Assembly (NCBI RefSeq): GCF_037038585.1
Contig: NC_092523.1
Coordinates: forward strand, 563,001-627,000
Source: Patagioenas fasciata
Lineage: Eukaryota > Chordata > Aves > Columbiformes > Columbidae
Reading direction: 5' to 3'
DNA length: 64,000 nt
Part shown: one piece after another, positions 1-64,000 of the stretch
How positions within the stretch are numbered: the first letter of the stretch is position 1
Layout of the letters: the number at the start of each line of letters is the position of its first letter
Notes under the pieces: model-generated
Told to the model about the DNA's origin: nothing
The model's input: the letters and a program-made list of their open reading frames with translations, nothing else
The model's database searches: none
Translations under genes and position numbers: made by a program

Positions 1-279
1 GCGCAGGGCGGGCAGGGCGGGCAGCGCAGACCGCCGGGCCTCGCTACCTCGGAACCACAGCAGCACCAGCGCCGCCGCCCCGGCGCCCAGCGCCGCCGCC
101 AGCGCCCGGGCCCCGGCGGAGGGAGGAGGCGGAGGAGGTGGAGGAGGCGGCGCGGAGGCCCCGGCGGAGGGAACTGGAGGTGGAGGAGGCGGCGGCGCTA
201 GGACCCCGGGGGCCCCGCACAGCGCCCGGCACCAGCGCCCCGCGCGCGGCACCCGCGCCCCGCGCGCCAGCGCCGCCAT
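1..279 (-). CDS. HTRA2: HTRA2 (Omi) mitochondrial serine protease, N-terminal exon, partial
   Basis: Reading leftward from the ATG at 279, the frame stays open to the window edge. It gives a short Ala/Arg-rich presequence beginning MAALARGARV, two Pro-rich stretches, then a hydrophobic segment LAAALGAGAAALVLLWFRG (about residues 59-77). Human HTRA2 has the same order: an arginine-rich mitochondrial targeting sequence followed by a single inner-membrane anchor of similar composition (LAVALGAGGAVLLLLW). HTRA2 is a trimeric intermembrane-space protease for protein quality control, released in apoptosis. The protease and PDZ domains lie outside the window. The head-to-head position with AUP1 matches the human locus and supports the call. 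A GT at about 48-49 (after the anchor) could be a splice donor, but the frame also continues past it, so the exon end is not fixed. The call rests on position and a short diverged N-terminus; the family and frame are fairly secure. Confidence 0.8.
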   Translation of the reverse strand, partial: MAALARGARVPRAGRWCRALCGAPGVLAPPPPPPPVPSAGASAPPPPPPPPPPSAGARALAAALGAGAAALVLLWFRGSEARRSALPALPALR

Positions 280-656
280 GCTGCTCAGGCGCGGGGCACG
301 CTGGGAGCCGAGTGCGGCCGGGGGGCGCGTCCGAGCCGCGGGGCGCGCTGGGAGCCGAGTCCCGCTGGAAGCCGCGGATCCGCCGGTAGCCGCAGCGCAG
401 CGGCCAGCGGGGCAGGGCGGGCAGAGCGTGCGGCGGAAGCAGCTCACTGGGTTCACCGGGATCACTGGGATCACCGGGATCAGCGGGCCCGACAGCCCCG
501 CCCCGCTGCCGGGCGCTCGCGGCCAGAGGGCGGGAGCGGGGGGGGGCGCGGTGCACGCCGGGAAGGCGCTCCCAGGCTGCCCCGCGCGGGCGGGCGCGCG
601 GCCGCGGGAAGATGGCGGCGGGCGCGGCGCGGCGCTGAGGTCCCGGCGCGGCGGGG
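280..656. promoter_or_regulatory. Bidirectional CpG-rich promoter between HTRA2 and AUP1
   Basis: Only 377 bp separate the divergent start codons. The stretch is very GC- and CpG-rich with no TATA box. It contains AAGATGGCGGC (609-619), a match to the YY1 element common at housekeeping promoters, just upstream of AUP1. A short tandem run of a ~12-bp unit (CACCGGGATCA-like) lies at about 441-485. In mammals HTRA2 and AUP1 are also divergent neighbours. Transcription starts cannot be placed from sequence alone. Confidence 0.7.
612..638 (+). promoter_or_regulatory. Short upstream ORF in the AUP1 leader
   Basis: The ATG inside the YY1-type element opens an 8-codon ORF (MAAGAARR) that stops at TGA 636-638, in the same frame as the AUP1 start and 18 bp before it. 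If transcription begins upstream of 612, it would be read before the main start. If it begins at the YY1 element, the uORF is irrelevant. Confidence 0.35.
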
Positions 657-3600
657 ATGGAGCCTCCGGGCCCGGGCCCCGAGCGGCTCTTCGACTCGCA
701 CCGGTGAGCGGCGGGGGGCGCGGGGGCTTCGCCGGGCGTGCCGGCAGCCCCGTGCGGGCTGCGGGGAGTCCCTGGGGAGGCCCCGGGGCCCGCTGCGGAA
801 GGGTCGTCCCGCAGGGGACCTGGGGGGAGCTGGGGTGTCCGTGGGGCCGGTGAGGGCCCAGGGGTGTGCCCAGGAGGGGCCGGTGTCTCGCTGGGCCCCG
901 GGGGCAGCCCGGGCTCCGGCCGCCCCGTTTGTCGCGGCCCGCTCAGGCCGCTCTGCTCCTCGGCCCCGCAGGTTCCCGACCGACGGGTTCCTGCTGCTGG
1001 CCCTGCTGCTGTACGCGCCCGTGGGGCTCTGCCTGCTCGTCCTGCGCCTCTTCATCGGCGCCCACGTCTTCCTGGTCAGCTGCACCCTGCCCGACAGCGT
1101 CCTGCGCCGGTGCGTGAGCGCGGAGCTGCGGTTCCGGGGCTGTGGGGTGCGGGGGGGCTGCCCTCGCCGCGGGTCCTCAGCCACGGGTGGCGCCTGGAGC
1201 GGCGCACGGGGAGCTCTGCTCCGGGACTCTTTGCCCAGGCCCCATGAATGTGTTTTTCTGCCGAGACCAGAGCTGGTAGTCGCCTCCTGAATGCTCGAGG
1301 GCTGATCTGAGGCACTGGGATCAGCTGAGTGTCCCGCTAAGAAATTCCGTGTGCAGTTGCCGCCCGTGTTTTGTGCTGCAGCTCCAGCTCCGTGGGCATC
1401 CCCCAGCCCCAGCTGCAGCCCCGAGCAGCCCCTGTCCAACACCGGTCGTATCTTTGCACCACTGCCCTTCTGCAAGGCACATGAGCTCCCGGGTCTCTGT
1501 TCCGGGTGTGAACACCAGTGACGGCTCAGGCTACAGGGCCTGAGGAGATCACTTTCCTGCCCTCTCAGGTTTATTGTACGTGTGATGTGCTCAGTGCTGG
1601 GCTTGTTTGTGCGGCAAAGCGACCCCCGGCTTCGCGACGCCAGCGTGCGTGTGTACATCGCCAACCACGTGACGCAGTTCGATCACAATGTCATCAACCT
1701 TCTGACCTCATGTAACACGGTGGGTGACATGGAGCCCGCGGCAGCTCTGCCAGCACCTCTCTCCAGACAGGGCTCCTCTGGAGCGGGGGCGTTGCTGTGT
1801 TCTTCAGTTCTTATTTGTGAACCCAGGAGTGCACAAGCCTTGAGTTTTTTCTGTGGTTCAGTGCTGCGTTCTTGGGCTCTGCATGAGAAAATGAAACAGG
1901 GCGGGGAGGGGCAGGGAGCGTTCCATGGACGGAGAGCGGACAGCCCTGGAGCTGTGTTGTTTTCTGCCCCGCTGGAGCGGTGCTGTCAGAGCAGGTTTCC
2001 CTGCAGCAGCGGGAGCCGTGGCTGAGTGGGGACAGCGGCTGTGGGGGACCAGCGGGGCTTGGGTTGCGCTGCTGGGCTGGTGGTTGTGTAACGTCCCCTG
2101 TGGTCTTGTGAAATCCCTCCTGTGGAGCTCCCGAGGCAACAGGCTCTGAACGCGCCTGGGCGCGAGCGGGCTGGTCCGCATCCTGAGCAGCAGATCTGCT
2201 CCTCACCTGGAGAAAAGTCACTCGTGACAGAGGCGTGTCCTCTGCCGGCTCGTCAGGAGCCATGAGGGAGAACATGGGGAAATGTGGGTGTCACCCAGGG
2301 CACTGGGGGGTTCATTTCTCTGGCAGCCAGAAACACTCTGGACTGAAGACTGGGCATTGAACCTTGCGGAATCGGGGCCAGAGCGGCTGCTGAGGCCCCG
2401 GAGGGGAACAGGGTGTGTTCCTGCCTGACTGTTCTCCCCGCAGCCCGCGCTGAACGCTGCCCCCGGCTTCCTCTGCTGGTCGCGGGGGTTCCTGGAGCTG
2501 GGAGCCGGCAGCCGAGCGGAGCTGGTGCATTCTCTGAAGGCGTATTCGTCCCACGGAGCCAACCCCCCGCTGCTACTCTTCCCAGAGGAGGCGGCCACCA
2601 ACGGCCGGGCTGGCCTGCTGCGCTTCAGGTACCGGGAACGGGTGCCGTGGGGCCGTGCTCGCGTGGCGTTGGCTTTGGGGTCCCTCGTGGCTGAATTCTC
2701 TGCCTTTGGGATCCCTCATGGCCAAATTCTGCAGCTTTGGGATCCCTCACGGCTGAATTCTCCCTTTCCAGCTCCTGGCCATTCTCCCTGGCAGACGTGG
2801 TGCAGCCCGTGGCCCTGCACGTCCAGAGGCCCTTGGTCACTGTGGTGAGTTGGGGGCTCAGGGCGGGGGGTTCCTGGGGATGTGCGCTATGGGGGGTTCC
2901 TGGGGACGTGTGCTGTGGGGGGCTGGCCGTGCCCATAGTTCTGCTGCTGCCTATGATAGCTCAGCCTGGCCTCGTGTCCAGGCTGCTCTTTAGTGCCTTT
3001 CCCAGGGACCTTCTGCTGAGTCCAGATGTTTTAGTTACTCCGGCAGTTTTGGTAGATGTTTTAGCGACTTGGCTGTCTAGCGGTGCCGTCTGACTCCCTT
3101 GTCCACAGTATCTCTGTCTCATCTCTGTGAGCTCCCCACCTTTAAGGCGCTTTAGCAGCGGGTCCAGCCGCGTTGCGCAGGGCTCTGGAGCAGGTCTGGA
3201 GCTCCATCTCCAAGTGCAGACATGTAATGTGATGCAACGTTAGTTTCAGAGAAGTGGCAAAGTTCATGAGCACGATTCTGGTGCTGCTAAATAGATTGCA
3301 ATAGAACTGTCCTCAGCTTATTTACAGAGCAAGATTTTGTTGAATTTCTTATTTCTTGACATGATTTATGGATCTGCTTGATTGTGTCTTATGTTTGTCT
3401 GACGTTTTGGTTGAGGGTCTCCTGTCTATGTCTTTAGGACAGTAGTGCACAGTGGGTGGATCTAAAGCCCCTTACCAGCAGGTCACAAACATCGCTGCCC
3501 GCACTAACGCACCAGAGTGCGGGTGTTCCCCACGCAGCTCTGTCGGCGTGGGTTCCGTGCCTGTGCTGCTCAGCGCTGACACCGGGGCTGCGGGTGACAG

Positions 3601-6600
3601 TGCTGAGGTCTCTGCTGGGAAAGTTTGTGTTGTTGAGTAATGAAGCAGCCGGATTATTGATTATGACCATGGGAACGGCCGTTACTTGTAGGTGTAACTG
3701 GTCTGCGGGTGCGTAGCGAGGAGTATCTGTCAGGGTGAGGAGCAGGGTGTGCGCAGTGGTGGAAACCGCTGCGATACGGTGGCAGCTCCGGTCACCCTGC
3801 TGCTCTGGGGCAGCAGCAGAGCTCAGGGCAGGCCGGCGTGGTGCAGAATGCAGAGCAGCTCCTCAAGGCACTCGGCTTAGTCAGCGCATCGGACAAGCGG
3901 CAGAGAGGTTGTTGTGGGCAGCTGCTTGGTGTTGGGGACGAGCCTGAAGGGTGAAGAATTCTTGCACTTCTCTGACACAGCAGCAGTCCGCTGGCGCAGG
4001 GACCGTGTGTCAGGACTGCGCACGTTCGGGTTTCGGTTAAGACACTGTTGTCCAACAGCGAGGATGCTTTAAGTTTTTGAATGACAACCCCAGAGGAGTG
4101 GCAGAGCTGTCCCGTTCTGGACTGTTTGTAACAAATTTATCGTATTTTTATAGTTTTGCCTCCTCTGAGCAGTTCTGTGAGATGTGACAGGGTGTACATT
4201 TGTCTGTGCATCCTTCATGAATGTCGGGGAGAGCAGCGAGCACACAGCTGCAGAGCTGTGTGGTCACTGGTTTGGTCACTTGTTGGCTCGGGTTTTCCCA
4301 GGATGTTTTGCCCCTGGAGCATATGGGCTCAGCAAGTCCTCGTGGGTTTGTCCTGTAGCTGTGAACCAGCAGCAACATCCAAGGGCTGAAGCTGGGATAC
4401 TAACAGTGGCTCAGTCAGCACTTCACCCCAAGCTTCCTTGGACACTTATGTGACCTTTATCAGACACTGGGCAAACTGCCAAACTGGGGTTTAAGGATGA
4501 ATTTTCTCCGGCTCCAATTGTCTGGACCCTCAGCAGAGGCGGCTGCTCTGAGGCATGGGGCAGTGTGACTCAGGTCTGGCTGTTGGCATTACCGTAGGGC
4601 CTTTGGGCTTAGCCCCTCAGATCTGTTTATCCGGCAGATGGGGTTCCTGTACGTTGCCCTCGGTCACTGTGGTCGGCGGGCTGTTCTCCCGTACAGCAGC
4701 CCTTTCGCACCGCGGTACAAACCTGCCTGGGAGCCGCGCTGCTGCGGCCGGGACATGAGCTGCGGGTCTGGAGGTGGTCTCACTGGCTTGTGGCTGCGCA
4801 GTCGCTGCGGGATGAAAGCAGCCAGCTACAGAAATCCCAGGAACACCTCCATCCAGTGGCAAATTCTGGAGAATCGTTGGAAAGTGTAGATGTGGGGAAT
4901 CTCTGGAGATGTCTTCAGCTTTCTGCTCGTGGTCAGACTGGACCCGAGGACGGTCCATCCGGTCAGGGCTGTGTCTGCAGAGGATGGAGAGCACGTCGCC
5001 TTGGAGCTCTGCTGAGGGAAAGGGTATCTAATAGTTTTTAGAAATAAAAAGAAAGGAAATTAATTACTGCTTGCCTTTGGTGAATTGTCCTCGAAGAGTA
5101 GAGTAGTTTGAGAGTTCACAGTGCAGCCTGTTTGGAAATGGAGAGAGAAAGCATACGGGAGCTGAGACATCATGTGGGCTGTTCCCATCAGAACAAGGGA
5201 GGATTGTTCATGATTCTAAGGAAGCATTAGTAGGTCTGAATACACTTCTGCTCCCTTCCAAAGGCACAGTCTGCTAGAGAATGGGGGAATATTGAGGGAA
5301 ATTCTGGCTGTCCTGGTGGGGGAGCAGATGGCTCGGGGCAGGGGAAGCTGTGACTTGCACCCTGCCAGGTGCAGACCAGCAAAGGTGCAGCTGTCCTGGG
5401 TGTCCCTCACTGCACACTGCGCTTGTGTTCCCTCTGCGCCGGGCTCGTGTTCCCCCGTGTCTCTGTGCCTGTGTAGCTGCTGCCGCCGAGGCAGAGCCGT
5501 GTTCTGCCTGCTCACCCCTGGAGACCCAGCCAACCCGTCTCCTTGCACTGTCACTATTCTCTCACTGTGCTCTCCTCTCCAGAGCGTCGCTGACTCCTCC
5601 TGGATCACAGAGCTGCTCTGGACCTTCTTTGCTCCCTTCACAGTTTATCAAGTAAGGTACTACCTCTCTTTCTCTCATTTGGGGCAGGGTTCAGGGTGGG
5701 CAGAGCGCCTGACGTGTTTACTGTTACAGTAAGAGATCTTTTGGTGAGCGCTGACGTGCACCCCTGGTGTGCTAACTCAGCGTGGCTTTGCTCAACATGA
5801 TTTGTCCATGCAAGGTCCAGCTCCTGGACCAGCTTCTGAAGCAGGGGGGCTCCTGGCTCCTGTGTTCTCTTGGTGAAGGAGAGGAGTCTCCCAGGGCTTT
5901 CGTGTCGGGTTTGCCGGGTGTATTTTTGAGACAGCTGCTCTGCTGTGGTTCAGCCCAGGGCTGCTGGTCCCGTGGGTGGTTCCCTGCGGCAGCTCCGTCT
6001 GTCTGGCTCTTCCCTGCGGAGGTGGCTCAAGGACCGGCTGGACCCACCTGAGCCCAACTGCCGGGGCAGCGCTGGGGCTGGGAGTCACACTGGGGGGTCG
6101 GGGTGTTTCAGTAAAGGAAACTCGTGCGTAGCCTTCCCCAGCCGCCTCTGCTCGAGTCCTGCTGATCTGTTTTCTACTTTGATGTAAACAGCAGCATCTC
6201 CTCATTTGGGTCCTTTCTGGGAGACACTTTGCATGTTGAGTGCCAATAAAGATTCAGTCAGCCAGTTCTGTCTCTGGGCCGTGCCTTGCCCTGGTGCTGA
6301 GGCTCGCCCCTCCTCGTGGGTGAGCGGGGGGCTGGGGGCCGCACGATGCGGTGACCCCGCGGGGCTGGTCCCCAGCAGCCCCCGATGCTGCCAGCCCCGC
6401 GCTATTGTCCCCATTCAGGTGGCTGCCGTCTGTCCCCAGACGAGCTGAAGAGCCGAGCGAGGATTTTGCGCTCCGAGTTCAGGAGGTAGGAGAATGGGGT
6501 GGGTGGGGGCTCAGGACTGCTGCGATTTGGGATGGTGCAGGAGTTGCCAAGGGCATTGCTGGACGGGTGTATCTATGTGATGGGAACTCTGGGCCCTATT

Positions 6601-8968
6601 TATTGCCCCTTATTTTTTCATGGCCTGTTTGTGACCCCCCATTTATCCTCCTGCCTGTTACCAAGGCTCTCCCTCCCCATCCAGTCCAAACCTCTCACTC
6701 CCTGTTCATAACACCACAAATCAAATAAAGCAATTGTTTCTCCACCTTTCCCTCATGTGCTGGCACTTCATAGCTCCTGTACCAAAGATCTCGTATCTCC
6801 CTGTCAGCCTGTTTCGGCAGGATGCTCTTGCCTACCCTGGTCCTTCATGTGCTCCAGGCAACACTGAAATGCACCACTGAGGCCCTGCAGAAATCAGTTC
6901 CCCGTGCTCTTGCCCTCGCCGTGGCGCCACGCAGGCCTGTACCGCTGACACCCCACGAGCCGGGGCCGCGCGTCCTGCGTGTCCTGCACATGTGGCTCTT
7001 TGCGTTTCTGCAGCTCCTGGCCGTGGAGCTGGGTGTGGTATCCACACGGCTCACCGCAGCAGACAAAGCTGAGCACATGAAGAGGCTGAGACACACGTCG
7101 CTGCTCCCCTTCGCCCCTGGTAGGTCCCTGGGTGGTGTCCTGGCTGCAGAACTGCTGCTTGGGCTCCGTCACGCAGGTGTGGGGGAGAGGAGCAGCACTT
7201 TGGGTCTCCTGGGGAGCAGGGGCTGCCCGTGTGCTGTAGGCTGGGGGTGTCGCTGCCTGGGGGGAGGCAGCAGCGCTGCGAGTGCAGACACGTTGGTCCC
7301 GTGCAGGATGTCTGGCTTTGTCACGCCAGTTCATCCCGGAGAAGCGCAGCTGTTGCAGCTCGGAGGCCGCGCGCCTCTGGGCCGCCCCTGTGCCCACCGC
7401 TCTGCTCTTGCAGGCTCCAGCCAGCCCCTGGCAGCCCGGCCCCGGGTCCCCTCCGGGCTTGGCACTGCCGAGGATGCGCGGATCGCAGCGATGGCACAGC
7501 GGGTGAAGGAGGTGCTGCCCCACGTGCCTCTGGAGGTCATCAGGACAGACCTGGGTAAGCGATGCTGGGGCGTGAGCAGGGACGTGGCATCACCGTCCCT
7601 GCCAGGTGTGCGACACCTGAAGCAGAAATCGTGTCCCTGCTGCGCAGGAGCAGCGAGGGTGTGGGTGTCCCACGCAGCAGCTCCCTCTGACAGATCCCCC
7701 TTGTCCCCGCAGCCCGCACCAGCTGTGTGGACACCACCATTGCCAACCTGCTGGAGGGCAGCGTGCCATTCTGCCCCGAGAGCGGGGAGGACAGCGCGGA
7801 CCTGCCCGCCCCAGCGCCCTCCGCGCCCGCAGCCGCGTCCAGCACCCAGGGCTCCGCGGCAGCACCTGCCAAGGTACGGCTGGGGGGTGGTACTGCTGCT
7901 CTGGTGGCCACGGCCAGAGCACCATGGCCCGTGTGCAGGACTGGCCATGGTGTCGGGGGAATGAGCATTTTAACCCGGAGACCAAATTGCCAGCGTGGCC
8001 CTCATGAAGCCACCGCCGAGGTCTCCCGGCTGCGCGTCTCCTGACGGCTGTTGCGCTTTCTGTTCCAGCCAGCCCCAAAGCAGTTCGCGAAGTCCCCCGT
8101 GGAGCGGCACCTGTCCCTGCAGGAGCGGAAGCGAGCGCTGTATGACTACGCCAGGAGGTGAGCCCGTCTGCCCGGTGCCCCGTCCCCAGCAGAGCCCGGG
8201 TGTGCTTGTGGTGCTGGGCCGAGCTGGGACAGCGGCTGTTTGGCAGGAGCAGGGCTCAGCGAAAAGCCTCGCTTGGTTCCTTGGCGTGGGGTTTGGCTGA
8301 GGGAGCCCCTGGGCGCCGGGGGTTTATGTGAGGTGGCAGTGAGGCCCTGGCACCCTCGCTTTGAAGTCTGCGGCTTGGCTGTGGGGACAGCGCGATGAGC
8401 CCTGCGCAGGTGGAGTCACAGAGAGCAGGGAGCGAGCGGGACCGCGAGCCGGCTCTGGTGGGGTCCGGTCCCGGTGCCGGATGGGTCCTTTGTAGAAAGA
8501 TACAGGGAGTTCCAAACGAGTTTGGTGGGCAGTGCGGCGGGGGGGGCTGGGCGGGGACGGGTGGGGACGGCAGAGCCGTGACGGGGGCAGAGCTGGGGAC
8601 GGGGCGGCTCCTTCTGAGGGAACCGGGTGTCCCAGGGCCACCGGGGGCTCCAGCCGCACACCGGTGCCGGTCCCGGTCGCGCTGTGTCCCGGTGCCGGCC
8701 CCTGACACCCTGTGTCCCGGTGCCGGTCCCGGTCGCGCTGTGTCCCGGTGCCGGTCCCTGACACCCTGTGTCCCGGTGCCGGTCGCGTTGTGTCCCGGTG
8801 CCGGTTTCGGTCCCTGACGCGCTGTGTCCCGGTTCCGGTCGCGCTGTGTCCCGGTTCCGGTGCCGGTCCCTGGCGCGCGATGTCCCGGTTCCGGTTCCGG
8901 TCCCTGACGCGCTCTCTCCCCGCAGCCGGTTCGCCCAGAAGCTCCGTGCGGCGCGCGGCGGCCCCTGA
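657..8968 (+). CDS. AUP1: AUP1, lipid-droplet and ERAD ubiquitin-recruiting protein
   Basis: Twelve coding exons join in phase to 424 aa: 657-703, 972-1109, 1569-1719, 2444-2628, 2772-2844, 5583-5656, 6419-6485, 7014-7119, 7414-7554, 7713-7873, 8069-8157, 8926-8968. All have GT-AG borders. The N-terminus reads MEPPGPGPERLFDSHR, close to human AUP1. A hydrophobic hairpin (about residues 20-48) is followed by an acyltransferase-like domain with the NHX4D motif HVTQFD (H95, D100) and the block FPEEAATNGR. Next come the DKAEHMKR segment, a CUE ubiquitin-binding domain (about 305-355, starting AQRVKEVLPHVPLEVI) and a C-terminal E2-binding helix of the G2BR type (SLQERKRALYDYARR). AUP1 sits on the ER and lipid droplets and recruits UBE2G2 for ER-associated degradation. 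Length matches the 410-aa human form. The start is the first ATG that gives the conserved N-terminus. Confidence 0.97.
2845..5582 (+). other. AUP1 intron 5 (2.7 kb, largest AUP1 intron)
   Basis: This intron separates the VQRPLVTV and SVADSSW exons. It is less GC-rich than the flanks, with an AT-richer patch at about 3230-3440 and another at about 5030-5130. I see no exon, RNA gene or recognisable transposon in it. The smaller introns before it (1720-2443) and after it (5657-6418, 6486-7013) also hold no gene. AATAAA occurs at 6245-6250 and 6724-6729, but both lie inside introns with no supporting terminal exon. Confidence 0.6.
8655..8925 (+). repeat. Imperfect GC-rich minisatellite in last AUP1 intron
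   Basis: Imperfect tandem copies of TGTCCCGGTGCCGGTCCC and variants ending CTGACACCC or CTGACGCGC fill most of the intron right up to the final acceptor at 8924-8925. Confidence 0.8.
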
Positions 8969-9034
8969 GGCGCGGCGGGGGGACCGGAAGCGCCCGAGCC
9001 CTGCGCGGCCGGCGGGGCGCCCCCTGGCGGCGGA

Positions 9035-9040
9035 AATAAA
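9035..9040 (+). terminator. AUP1 poly(A) signal AATAAA
   Basis: The canonical hexamer lies 67 bp after the AUP1 stop codon, giving a very short 3' UTR. The next gene on the same strand starts coding 446 bp later. Confidence 0.85.
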
Positions 9041-9446
9041 CGGCGGCAGCGTCTGGCGCGGCTCGGCTCTGCAAGGGGGCGGGGGCACCGGGGCGGGGGG
9101 GCGGGGGCACCGGGGCGGGGCTATCGGGGCGGGGGGCGGGGCCCGGGGCGGGGCGGCCCGTCTCCGTGCGGAGTCGCACGCGTCGCGGCTGCCGCCCGCT
9201 CGCGCGCCGCACGTAGGCGCCGCTTAAATGGGCAACGCGGCGGGGCCGGCCCCTCCCGCGCCGGGGGGTGGGCGGCGGGCGGACGCGGCTTCGGGGCGGT
9301 GCTGACCGGGAACCCCGTGGGGGGCCGGCGTTCCCCTCGCTCCCGCCCGGCTGCGGACCCCGCGGGCCCCACTGGACGCGGCCGGTGCCCTTTTAAGACA
9401 CGGGCTCCCGGTGCCGGTGGTTTTATTTACATGGGGGCTCGCGGGC

Positions 9447-9456
9447 GTCACGTGAC
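9447..9456. promoter_or_regulatory. Palindromic CLEAR/E-box GTCACGTGAC, containing a HIF-type ACGTG core
   Basis: GTCACGTGAC is the perfect form of the CLEAR element bound by TFEB/TFE3/MITF, and also fits USF. Its ACGTG core is compatible with HIF binding. It lies 30 bp upstream of the BNIP3-like start codon. BNIP3 and BNIP3L are known hypoxia and autophagy targets, so the site fits the gene, but occupancy is inference. Confidence 0.55.
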
Positions 9457-9485
9457 TGGCTGAGCGCGGCGGCACCCGCGGGGCC

Positions 9486-11261
9486 ATGGCGCGCGCCGGC
9501 GACGACGGTCCGTGGGGGCCGGGGGGGGCACCGAGGAGGGAGGGGGGGGGTCCCGGGCGGGCCGGCGTGACCCGGTGTCGGGGCCGGGGGCATCGCCGGG
9601 CGGGCAGATGTGCGGGTCGGGGTCAGCGGGAGTCCCGGGTGGGCTGACACGCACCGGGGGTCCCGGGATGGCTGCACCGGGGATGCGGTTCCATGGGGTG
9701 ATGTGCGCTGGGGGGGCGGATTCGCGGGGGTCCTGCATGTGAGGCTGGGGGGCCGGGGAGCAGCCCTGGGCACACTGGGGGAGCAGATGTCCCGGGCAGG
9801 TCCCGGTGCTCCCGTGGTCCCGGACGCACCGGGAGGGCTCCAGCCGGGCTGAGCCCAGGAGGCCCCAGGGGCGGTTGGGGGTGTGGGGGCTGCGCTGGGC
9901 TGACGGCCCCCCAGGCTCCTGGGTGGAGCTGCGCTGTGGCCCAGCGTATCCGGAGCCCGAGCGGTTCTCCTCCTGCCACGCCGACGTGGAGCAGATGCTG
10001 CTGGAGGCCCAGCTGGAGCCGGACAGCGGTGACGGGTGAGTGAGGAGCCCGAGCCCCTGCAGCCCTGCCCGCCCGGGCGGTGCTGGGGCCGAGCGGCCGT
10101 GCGGGACGCTGACAGCGGGTTGTGTTTGCAGGGCCCTGCTGGCGCTGGGCTCCCTGGCCTGGGAGGACGCCGGCGCCGGGCGGGAGAGCGAGCAGCCTGG
10201 GCAGAGCGAGCTGCCCCCTCCTTGCAGCCAGCCCCATCCCGGCTGGCCCCACGTGCGGCAGGTGAGGGGCTGCCCCGCTGCCCTGGGTCCCCGCTGCCCT
10301 GGGTCCCCGCTGCCCTGGGTCCCCGCTGCGCTGGGTCCCTGCTGCGCTGGCCGTGCCGCTGCCCTGGGTCCCCGCTGCGCTGGCCGTGCTGCTGCCCTCA
10401 CCTGCCCTGCGCCTCCTTCCAGCAGGATGTGCCGGAGGAAGCCGAACGGAGGGAGCAACACCTGCTAGCATCCCTGACCAGGACCTGTGCCCGCCGCCCG
10501 CATCTGTCCCCAAAGTAAGGCCCGGGTCCCGTGCCAGCAGGTCACAGTCTTACTGTTAGCCTTGTCACCCCTGTCCTGTTGTCCCCATGCCCTCCTGTGT
10601 GCTCTGCCCTCGCTCCTCCTGCCCCCTTAACCGTGCACTTTCCCCAGGGAGTTTGCCTTTGTGTGCTCCCCCCAGCCGGTGCTGTGGAGCCTGCAGGGAG
10701 GTACAGTGGGGAGGAAGAAGAGACTTTTCAGTTCAGAGCTGCTGCTGCTCTTCATCCCCTCGCTGCTGCTCAGCCACCTGCTGACCCTGGGCCTGGGGTG
10801 AGTTTCGGATGGGCGTGGCGGTGCTGCGGGGCGGCCCAGGCCAGGACTGGCCCCACGGTGCAGCGGGACGAGCCTGGCGCTGCCGGGGGTGTCTGGGGGG
10901 CCCAGCCCCAACCCCAACCCAGGGGCTGTCCCCATGAGGCTGGGGGAACGTGCCTGGATGTGGATCCGTGGGTGCTGTTCTGCACCGCTGCTCCCAACAG
11001 CCGCAGTCTTTCCTGTGGCTGCTGCCCTCTCCTGTCACTGCTGGCCCGCTGAGGCTGAGGTGCCTGTCCCTGCATGGGTCACTGTCCCTGTGCAGGTGCC
11101 TGTCCCTGTGCAGGTGCCTGTCCCCATGCAGGTGCCTGTCCCATGCGGGTCACTGTCCCCGTGCAGGTGCCTGTCCCATGCGCGTCCCTCACAGCCGCTC
11201 TCTCCACCGCAGGATCTACATCGGGAAGCGGCTGGCGGCCTCCTCGGCAAACCCGCTGTGA
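9486..11261 (+). CDS. BNIP3/BNIP3L-family mitophagy receptor, third paralogue
   Basis: Six exons join in phase to 187 aa: 9486-9507, 9915-10035, 10132-10261, 10423-10514, 10648-10797, 11213-11261. Exon 4 could start three bases later at an alternative CAG. The product has the BNIP3 layout. Exon 2 opens with SWVEL, the LC3-interacting WxxL motif, at about residues 9-13. A BH3-like DVEQMLLEAQLE follows. Near the C-terminus is KEFAF, then a single transmembrane helix FIPSLLLSHLLTLGLGIYIG with a short tail KRLAASSANPL. Such proteins sit in the outer mitochondrial membrane and recruit LC3/GABARAP for mitophagy. Human BNIP3 is 194 aa. The central Ser-rich segment of BNIP3/BNIP3L is replaced by Gly/Glu/Pro-rich sequence, and the helix has Thr where BNIP3 has the dimer-interface Ala. 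Divergence is too great for a bird orthologue of BNIP3 or BNIP3L, so I treat it as a separate paralogue, perhaps the orthologue of teleost bnip4. Confidence 0.9.
10265..10395 (+). repeat. 16-bp minisatellite (CTGCCCTGGGTCCCCG) in BNIP3-like intron 3
   Basis: About eight imperfect copies, some interrupted by CTGCGCTGGCCGTG, directly follow the exon 3 donor. Confidence 0.75.
11060..11195 (+). repeat. 18-bp minisatellite (GTGCAGGTGCCTGTCCCT) in BNIP3-like intron 5
   Basis: About six imperfect copies lie between exons 5 and 6. Confidence 0.75.
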
Positions 11262-11549
11262 AGAGCTGGGCTCAGCGAGGACGGGCGGCTCCGCTCTGTG
11301 TGGGGGAACCCAGGCACCAGCGCAGCCCAGCCGCTCCCAGACTCCGCGCTGTGGCACGAGGTGGCGTCTCCCTTGTCCCTTTGTAGTCCTGGTCTAGGGG
11401 GCTGACCCCCCCACGTAGACGGGTCCCCCTGATGGCAGCTCCCTGCCGCAGGCAGCCCCACCCTCCCCAGCCCTCGGGTACGGGTCCAGGTTCCTTCTCT
11501 TTAGCACAAGGCTGTAAATACGACTCCTGAGCCTGCAACACCACATGTG

Positions 11550-11555
11550 AATAAA
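11550..11555 (+). terminator. BNIP3-like poly(A) signal AATAAA
   Basis: The canonical hexamer is 289 bp after the stop codon. It faces the DOCK-type gene's poly(A) signal 287 bp away on the other strand. The spacer 11556-11842 shows no other feature. Confidence 0.85.
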
Positions 11556-11842
11556 GAGCCTGTGCCAGCTCTGCAGGCAGAGCAGCGTGTGGCAGCCACC
11601 ACCCCGGGCCTGGCACAGCCCGGCCGTGGCAGAGGAGCGCGCACCGGGTCCCGTGGGCTCTCCCTGCCTCGGGGTCCAGACTGCAGGAGGGGGAGTCCCC
11701 GCTCTGGGGCACTGGGGCGCGGTGCTGGGTGGTGCCTGACTGCGGAGAGGCCCCGGCTGAGCTGTGCGTGGGCAGGGATGGTGCTGAGGCTCACACAGGG
11801 CGTTCAGCCCCGCCACGCGGTGCCCGGCTGATACGCGAGTCC

Positions 11843-11848
11843 TTTATT
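11843..11848 (-). terminator. DOCK-type gene poly(A) signal (AATAAA on minus strand)
   Basis: TTTATT on the plus strand reads AATAAA on the minus strand, 624 bp beyond the DOCK stop codon. The interval 11849-12471 would be its 3' UTR; it is GC-rich and contains a (GGAC)n run at about 12133-12150. Confidence 0.8.
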
Positions 11849-12471
11849 AGCTGGCTGTGGCCGTGGCCGTGGCCGCGTCCTGCTGCACGCAGGCAGGCAG
11901 CGCAGGTGGCCGGGGCAGCAGCACCGTCCCGGTGCAGGTGGTGGCAGCGCCAGAGCCCGGCCCCAGGGCCAGCACCGCCCGGAGGTGACGCTGCCCAGGG
12001 CCACCGGGCAGGAGCGTTTGTCCAGGGCTGCGGGACGGGGTGGCCGAGGGCTGGGGCTGCCGCAGAGCGGGGCTGGGAGGAGCTCGGGTGTGGTGTGCGT
12101 GGAGGGTCTGCGGGCAGGCTGGGGTGCGGGGGCGGACGGACGGACGGACGGATGTCCTTGGTGCAGTGTGATCACACTGGAGGGGCTGGGGGAGCTCAGC
12201 GCCGCTCTGCATGGGGATGTGTCCCGGCATAGGGGCAGGAGGGGAGCGCGGCCCCAAGGGGTGGATGTGTGTGTGGGACGGGGGGTCCCGGCACTGGGGA
12301 CACCTGGGGTGGCAATGGCCGGAGCTTCGGGACAGCAGTGCCCTGAGCCACCCCGGGTGCTGGAACATGCAGGGGTCCTGTGGTGTGCGGGGCTGTGGGG
12401 CCGCATCGGGTAGGATCGGGCAGCGCCGTTTGTCCCGCACCGCGGGGCCCGTGTCCCGGGGCCGGCAGCGG

Positions 12472-63885
<51,414 letters not shown>

Positions 63886-64000
63886 CTGGGGAGCGGCAGG
63901 GACAAGTTCAGCACAGGCAGGACACCTGGGGACAGCCGGGTGGCCAGAGCAGCACTGACCCCTCGTGAGGCTGCTGGGACCCCAGAGCCCCTGCACGCCC

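Follow-up and report, generated by a model that had tools for sequence, protein, structure and literature searches.

A probable fourth ohnologue block with DOCK-A, BNIP3-type and INSYN2-type genes beside HTRA2 and AUP1 in a bird genome

The 64-kb stretch of DNA analysed here (the window; C4:563001-627000, close to one end of a contig of 81.5 Mb) very probably holds the fourth ohnologue block of the Lbx2/Tlx2 paralogon, that of human 2p13, in which a DOCK-A gene and members of the BNIP3 and INSYN2 families all remain open coding genes. A fourth block from the 2R doublings, retained as intact-looking genes, had been proposed in a first-pass annotation, and the proposal is supported by the four blocks found in this genome, by open frames of 1132 (DOCK), 187 (BNIP3-type) and 587 (INSYN2-type) codons and by the placement of the DOCK split. 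In the proposed mechanism an ancestral linkage of DOCK-A, INSYN2 and BNIP3 would have been doubled twice in early vertebrates; we infer both this 2R date and the function of the block. The features of the window are the following.

1-279, minus strand: 5' coding part of HTRA2 with a presumed start codon, head to head with AUP1.
657-8968, plus strand: AUP1 with a CUE domain, exons read; its C-terminal pieces match the PDB structure of the AUP1 CUE domain (2ekf, E 2.7e-18).
9486-11261, plus strand: BNIP3-family gene, 6 coding exons, 187 codons (Pfam BNIP3, PF06553, E 7e-22).
63885-12472, minus strand: DOCK-A gene, 32 exons in the window and 1132 codons to the stop, with homologous exons in DOCK1, DOCK2 and DOCK5.
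16906-22404, no strand: minisatellite of 5.5 kb, 307 copies of an 18-bp unit, inside a DOCK intron.
50409-28315, minus strand: DOCK intron hosting the INSYN2-type gene; the homologous DOCK1 intron hosts INSYN2A.
40241-47809, plus strand: INSYN2/FAM196-family gene, exons 40241-41721, 44607-44681 and 47602-47809, 587 codons.

The window was read with the exception of the repeat array at 16921-22380, and gene models were built with explicit splice sites, those of DOCK being picked to keep the frame open. All five genes named in the first-pass annotation were recovered with domain or structure matches: HTRA2 and AUP1, then the BNIP3-family gene and the antisense DOCK-A gene, and, inside one of the DOCK introns, the INSYN2-family gene. 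The frames of the last three are open. Pfam placed the BNIP3-, DOCK- and INSYN2-type products each in its own family. The remainder of HTRA2 was found in the adjoining 10 kb, and the joined pieces matched HTRA2 in the PDB (E 1.2e-118) and carried Trypsin_2 and PDZ domains. The first 221 residues of AUP1 gave no match in a Pfam search. The short GC-rich gap between the divergent HTRA2 and AUP1 starts (280-656) is probably a promoter common to both.

The GC content was 67% for the window and 68-73% for five adjoining pieces; nine pieces surrounding the sister blocks on the three other contigs had 36-50%. Besides the minisatellite, many further repeat arrays were observed (90 rows in the repeat listing), and short reads typically fail to span arrays of this kind. 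Two repeat copies at 28700-29067 and 44847-45216, which we take to be CR1-like, lie in the same orientation in the same DOCK intron; they are 96.8% identical over 370 bases and were therefore deduced to be fairly young insertions.

The DOCK gene model used GT at 30 of 31 donors, GC at the remaining one and AG at all 32 acceptors. The GC-AG intron is at 23414 (donor GCAAGC), and two other donors, both GTATCC, are weak. A small exon considered near 52157-52232 was left out of the model, since exons 53134-53007 and 50505-50410 join directly, with the frame kept and no gap relative to DOCK5. In Pfam the part of the product encoded in the window comprises a TPR region and three DHR-2 lobes (PF23554, PF06920, PF20421 and PF20422). 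The exons beyond 14239-14102 encode a C-terminal tail for which no homologue was available for comparison here, and the protein ends in a proline-rich tail with PPPPPPK. The gene extends about 15 kb past the window, to about C4:642,000, where SH3-like, DOCK_N and DHR-1/C2 exons were found (PF14429, PF16172). These upstream pieces add 507 residues and, from the SH3-like start up to and including DHR-1, match DOCK5, DOCK2 and DOCK1. Neither the first coding exon nor certain other upstream exons were found beyond the window as far as about C4:642,000. The SH3-like part, with its first exon missing, matched the structures of DOCK1 (2m0y, E 3.9e-5) and DOCK2 (3a98, E 1.1e-43), while the joined pieces gave no Pfam SH3 match. 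The gene has nearly all the parts of a DOCK-A gene, among them the DOCK N-terminus, DHR-1 (C2) and DHR-2.

The product is 63-72% identical to DOCK1, DOCK2 and DOCK5, and 47% and 44% identical to single exons on contigs C1 and C13, which places it nearer to DOCK1/2/5 than to DOCK3/4. With DOCK2, as with DOCK1 and DOCK5, it has in common DOCK_N, DHR-1/C2, the TPR region, the three DHR-2 lobes, the exon phases and, probably, the SH3-like start; a DHR-2 stretch of 20 residues is identical to human DOCK2, and a run of 23 residues is likewise common to the two. It differs from DOCK2 in being a separate locus, 70% identical to the DOCK2 of the same genome, and in its own PPPPPPK tail. Most likely, judging from the SH3-like start, DHR-1 and DHR-2, the gene encodes a DOCK2-type Rac exchange factor. 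The GC content is 0.92 at third codon positions versus 0.40 at second positions, a contrast that fits protein-level constraint under strong GC pressure.

The BNIP3-type protein was found by alignment to carry an LIR (SWVEL), a SLiM (VEQMLLEAQLE) and a C-terminal membrane anchor. The first-exon donor (GTCCGT) is weak, and the start is therefore the least certain part of this gene. Like BNIP3 and BNIP3L/NIX, the protein has the WVEL LIR with a preceding serine, the SLiM, the C-terminal anchor and an exon boundary at PK|EF. The SLiM around NIX L75 reads VEQMLLEAQLE in the window versus MEKILLDAQHE. Replacement of NIX E72, L75, D77 and E81 by alanine gives a WIPI2-binding mutant (excerpted text of PMC12339401), and the window residues at these positions are E, L, E and E, a single D-to-E change. 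Unlike BNIP3 and NIX, the window protein lacks SRPE and the upstream tryptophan, the site by which PPTC7-FBXL4 brings about the degradation of those two proteins: ARRPHLSPKEF stands where bird BNIP3 and NIX have SRPENIPPKEF, and no tryptophan precedes it. In NIX the SRPE sequence and an upstream tryptophan are needed for PPTC7 binding; PPTC7-binding mutants were stabilised and RPE mutants raised mitophagy (excerpted text of PMC11316107). The protein is most likely, from these motifs, a tail-anchored mitophagy receptor that would recruit ATG8 proteins through the LIR and WIPI2 through the SLiM, and, having lost the docking site, it is predicted to escape PPTC7-FBXL4 turnover.

The anchor region of this protein is 24/45 identical to that of bird BNIP3, compared with 43/45 between bird and human BNIP3, and 54 sites were common to BNIP3 and BNIP3L alone versus 9 and 4 common to each of them and the window protein alone. 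The protein is fast-evolving, and this could be relaxed constraint. A third BNIP3-family lineage of vertebrates, BNIP3L2, has been attributed to 2R and reported from ray-finned fishes and the coelacanth only; the species table includes chicken, zebra finch, alligator and turtle, yet no BNIP3L2 is reported there (PMC5526904, as excerpted). The window gene is also a third BNIP3-family copy and may be the tetrapod form of BNIP3L2, a candidate identity drawn from the published description. A lead to zebrafish bnip4 was set aside; that gene is named bnip3b in the excerpted text of PMC4201762, which gives no synteny for it.

The INSYN2-type product matched Pfam FAM196 (PF15265, E 3.8e-59) at 201.9 bits versus a curated cut-off of 27. 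It resembles INSYN2A and INSYN2B (FAM196) in its three-exon coding structure, its antisense nesting in a DOCK gene and its similar exon 2 and C-terminal exon, and differs from them in a strongly diverged, Pro/Ala-rich main exon. This exon (40241-41721) scored 49 and 33 bits against the family versus 299 for INSYN2B and 485 for INSYN2A; it is so rich in proline and alanine that only its two ends match, and GC-biased gene conversion is a possible cause. The window protein had 59 sites in common with INSYN2A and 60 with INSYN2B, counts that do not decide the pairing. By family name the gene most likely encodes an inhibitory-synapse protein.

INSYN2A lies antisense in the DOCK1 intron homologous to the host intron of the window, and both flanking exons, which at first gave weak matches (E 0.27 and 0.95) and were then read directly, have the same length and phase as those of the window. 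In DOCK2 the exon after INSYN2B was read; in the search of contig C18 for the exons beside INSYN2B, exon 5 gave only a match at E 6.7 and exon 6 was not found. As the preceding exon was not found, the host intron of INSYN2B is compatible with the same position, not proven to be so.

The weak match of the INSYN2-type main exon and the loss of the SRPE/Trp region would both be expected of a decaying block, in which the genes are still open and the BNIP3-type and INSYN2-type proteins are no longer functional. This reading is considered unlikely. The window DOCK keeps 197 of the 214 columns (92%) that are invariant in the five other DOCK rows of the alignment described below, and the same test gave 201/218 for DOCK2, 199/223 for DOCK5 and 197/205 for DOCK1. 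The LIR, SLiM and anchor are kept in the BNIP3-type protein, the C-terminal exons of the INSYN2-type gene match the family, and all three frames are open.

The sister blocks were sought in the whole genome (1.454 Gb, 359 contigs). With the window DOCK as query, at least 54 exon matches were obtained, from 49 of 104 candidates scored: 25 on C4, 10 each on C18 and C11, 7 on C33 and 1 each on C1 and C13. A DHR-1 family search with all 41 candidates scored gave 26 matches at 11 loci, including C4, C18, C11 and C33. Four of the 11 DOCK loci in the genome are DOCK-A; if the C13 and C1:186M loci are DOCK3 and DOCK4, five are left for DOCK6-DOCK11, and one may be missing or unmatched. The homologous DOCK exons recovered number 48 (19 on C18, 16 on C33 and 13 on C11). 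The exon search required the splice phases of the window, so the shared phases are a consistency check rather than independent proof. The C18 gene was identified as DOCK2 (90% identical to human DOCK2), the C33 gene as DOCK5 (91% identical to human DOCK5) and the C11 gene as DOCK1, by exclusion and by a BNIP3 gene 1.9 Mb away.

All ten INSYN2-family matches were on C11 (in DOCK1), C18 (in DOCK2) and C4, antisense to DOCK each time, and all seven BNIP3-family matches were on C11, C33 and C4, with none on C18. A further BNIP3 search result at C27:7614037 (E 0.93) was taken as chance. A search for relatives in viral contigs gave 13 pattern matches, none of them confirmed by tblastn. The three other blocks expected from the first-pass annotation were therefore all located: DOCK1, INSYN2A and BNIP3 on C11, DOCK2 and INSYN2B on C18, and DOCK5 and BNIP3L on C33. 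That annotation had treated a missing DOCK2-INSYN2B locus as an argument against a fourth block, and the locus is present on C18. Since the three known blocks are on other contigs, the window block is an extra, fourth one.

Lysyl oxidase matches (22) fell at five loci, C4:547-552k, C33:5.69M, C11:27.9M, C48 and C16, and a distance of about 4.6 kb separates the first of these from the HTRA2 end. Those on C4, C33 and C11 are LOXL3, LOXL2 and LOXL4, read by linkage. In chicken, Aup1-Htra2-Loxl3 have been placed on chromosome 4, Dock2 on 13 and Loxl2 on 22, and the neighbours of human LBX2/TLX2 in the Lbx/Tlx paralogon include DQX1, AUP1, an HTRA gene, LOXL3 and DOK1 (excerpted text of PMC2446394). 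The layout of the window and its sister blocks agrees with these chicken positions. The same excerpt places no DOCK gene at human LBX2/TLX2, and the words bnip3 and fam196 are absent from the text; the corresponding position of the human genome lacks the DOCK/BNIP3/INSYN2 block.

An old, small-scale duplication before the tetrapods, in place of the 2R genome doubling, would be compatible with an unrooted DOCK topology for which there is no dated tree. It is nevertheless quite improbable, as the three linked families and a LOXL gene are distributed in the way published for the Lbx/Tlx paralogon (PMC2446394, as excerpted) and the quartet would otherwise lack precisely its 2p13 member.

The age of the block was deduced from DOCK, for which a tree was built; the INSYN2 and BNIP3 members of the window were placed by linkage. 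An alignment of 19 exons (654 columns) was used for an unrooted maximum-likelihood tree of six rows: the window, bird and human DOCK2, bird and human DOCK5, and bird DOCK1. Human DOCK1 was outside the tree because, for the DHR-2 part, DOCK1 was not among the matches of the structure search. Bird and human DOCK2 are identical at 534/595 positions (90%), the window and bird DOCK2 at 415/595 (70%) and the window and human DOCK2 at 448/649 (69%). The value for the window and bird DOCK1, 331/461 (72%), was the highest raw one, over fewer columns, and that for bird DOCK5 was 356/564. All three inner branches were starred: bird with human DOCK2 (100/100), bird with human DOCK5 (100/100), and the split of window and DOCK2 from DOCK1 and DOCK5 (100/99). 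Informative sites joining bird and human DOCK2 numbered 27-32, and those joining the window with either DOCK2 0-3 (1-3 with bird DOCK2). Among the four bird genes, 16 such sites joined the window and DOCK2 versus 4 and 4 for the other pairings.

In the AU test the pairing of the window with bird DOCK2 alone was rejected (p 6.7e-5), and constraining the window to human DOCK2 alone, to DOCK1 or to both DOCK5 rows gave p 1.1e-4, 4.1e-4 and 1.3e-4, respectively. As bird and human DOCK2 join with the window outside, the window DOCK split off before birds and mammals diverged, which is what would be expected of a 2R ohnologue, and the BNIP3 anchor identities agree with DOCK on this age. Rooting was tried with partial DOCK3 and DOCK4 rows, which filled 29% and 16% of the columns and had end branches above 2, and set aside for the unrooted six-row tree. 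In the rooted run the window-DOCK2 branch had 67/47, a fall attributed to the few DOCK3/DOCK4 exons and long branches, and an arrangement of the window with DOCK1/5 survived the test (p 0.193), unlike the pairing of window and bird DOCK2 (p 2.6e-5). The rooted branch being weak, the sisterhood with DOCK2 rests on the unrooted split, by which the window DOCK is likely the 2R twin of DOCK2.

The subtelomeres of bird macrochromosomes, including arms of chromosome 4, have been described as GC-rich and fast-evolving (excerpted text of PMC8449477). An origin of the window by recent segmental duplication of the DOCK2-INSYN2B block, in sauropsids or in birds, and by fast divergence in such a subtelomere would fit this rate and the grouping with DOCK2 in the unrooted tree, but it is very improbable indeed, since the 27-32 sites of bird and human DOCK2 stand against the 1-3 of window and bird DOCK2, the AU test and the identities (70% and 69% versus 90%) reject the place inside the avian DOCK2 clade that the first-pass annotation had given as the opposing outcome, and C18 has no BNIP3-family match, so that the DOCK2 block could not supply the BNIP3-type gene.

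With the fourth ohnologue block the 2R quartet is completed, the BNIP3, DOCK and nested antisense INSYN2 genes being traceable over four blocks in one genome, which suggests that the nesting of INSYN2 in DOCK predates the doublings. Three DOCK-A genes are known from mammals, and the window adds one to them. It also adds a BNIP3-type gene to those of land vertebrates, from which only BNIP3 and NIX were reported (PMC5526904, as excerpted). The words dock, bnip3, aup1, htra2 and loxl3 are absent from the main texts of PMC12954441 and PMC8449477, and none of the matches listed from the openly accessible literature describes a fourth DOCK-A gene or a third INSYN2 gene; automatic annotation may already list the window genes under "like" names. 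The block is also a warning that complete ohnologues can lie hidden in the GC-rich subtelomeres of birds. The BNIP3-type protein is predicted to be a naturally occurring variant in which a mitophagy receptor's recruiting motifs are uncoupled from its degradation signal. It is tentatively suggested, as a possibility rather than a probability, that birds kept a fourth, DOCK2-type Rac exchange factor together with a constitutively stable BNIP3/NIX paralogue free of the PPTC7-FBXL4 brake, from a lineage that was believed to go no further than the coelacanth. If this is true, avian mitophagy and leukocyte-type Rac signalling would use gene sets that are absent from mammal-based models.
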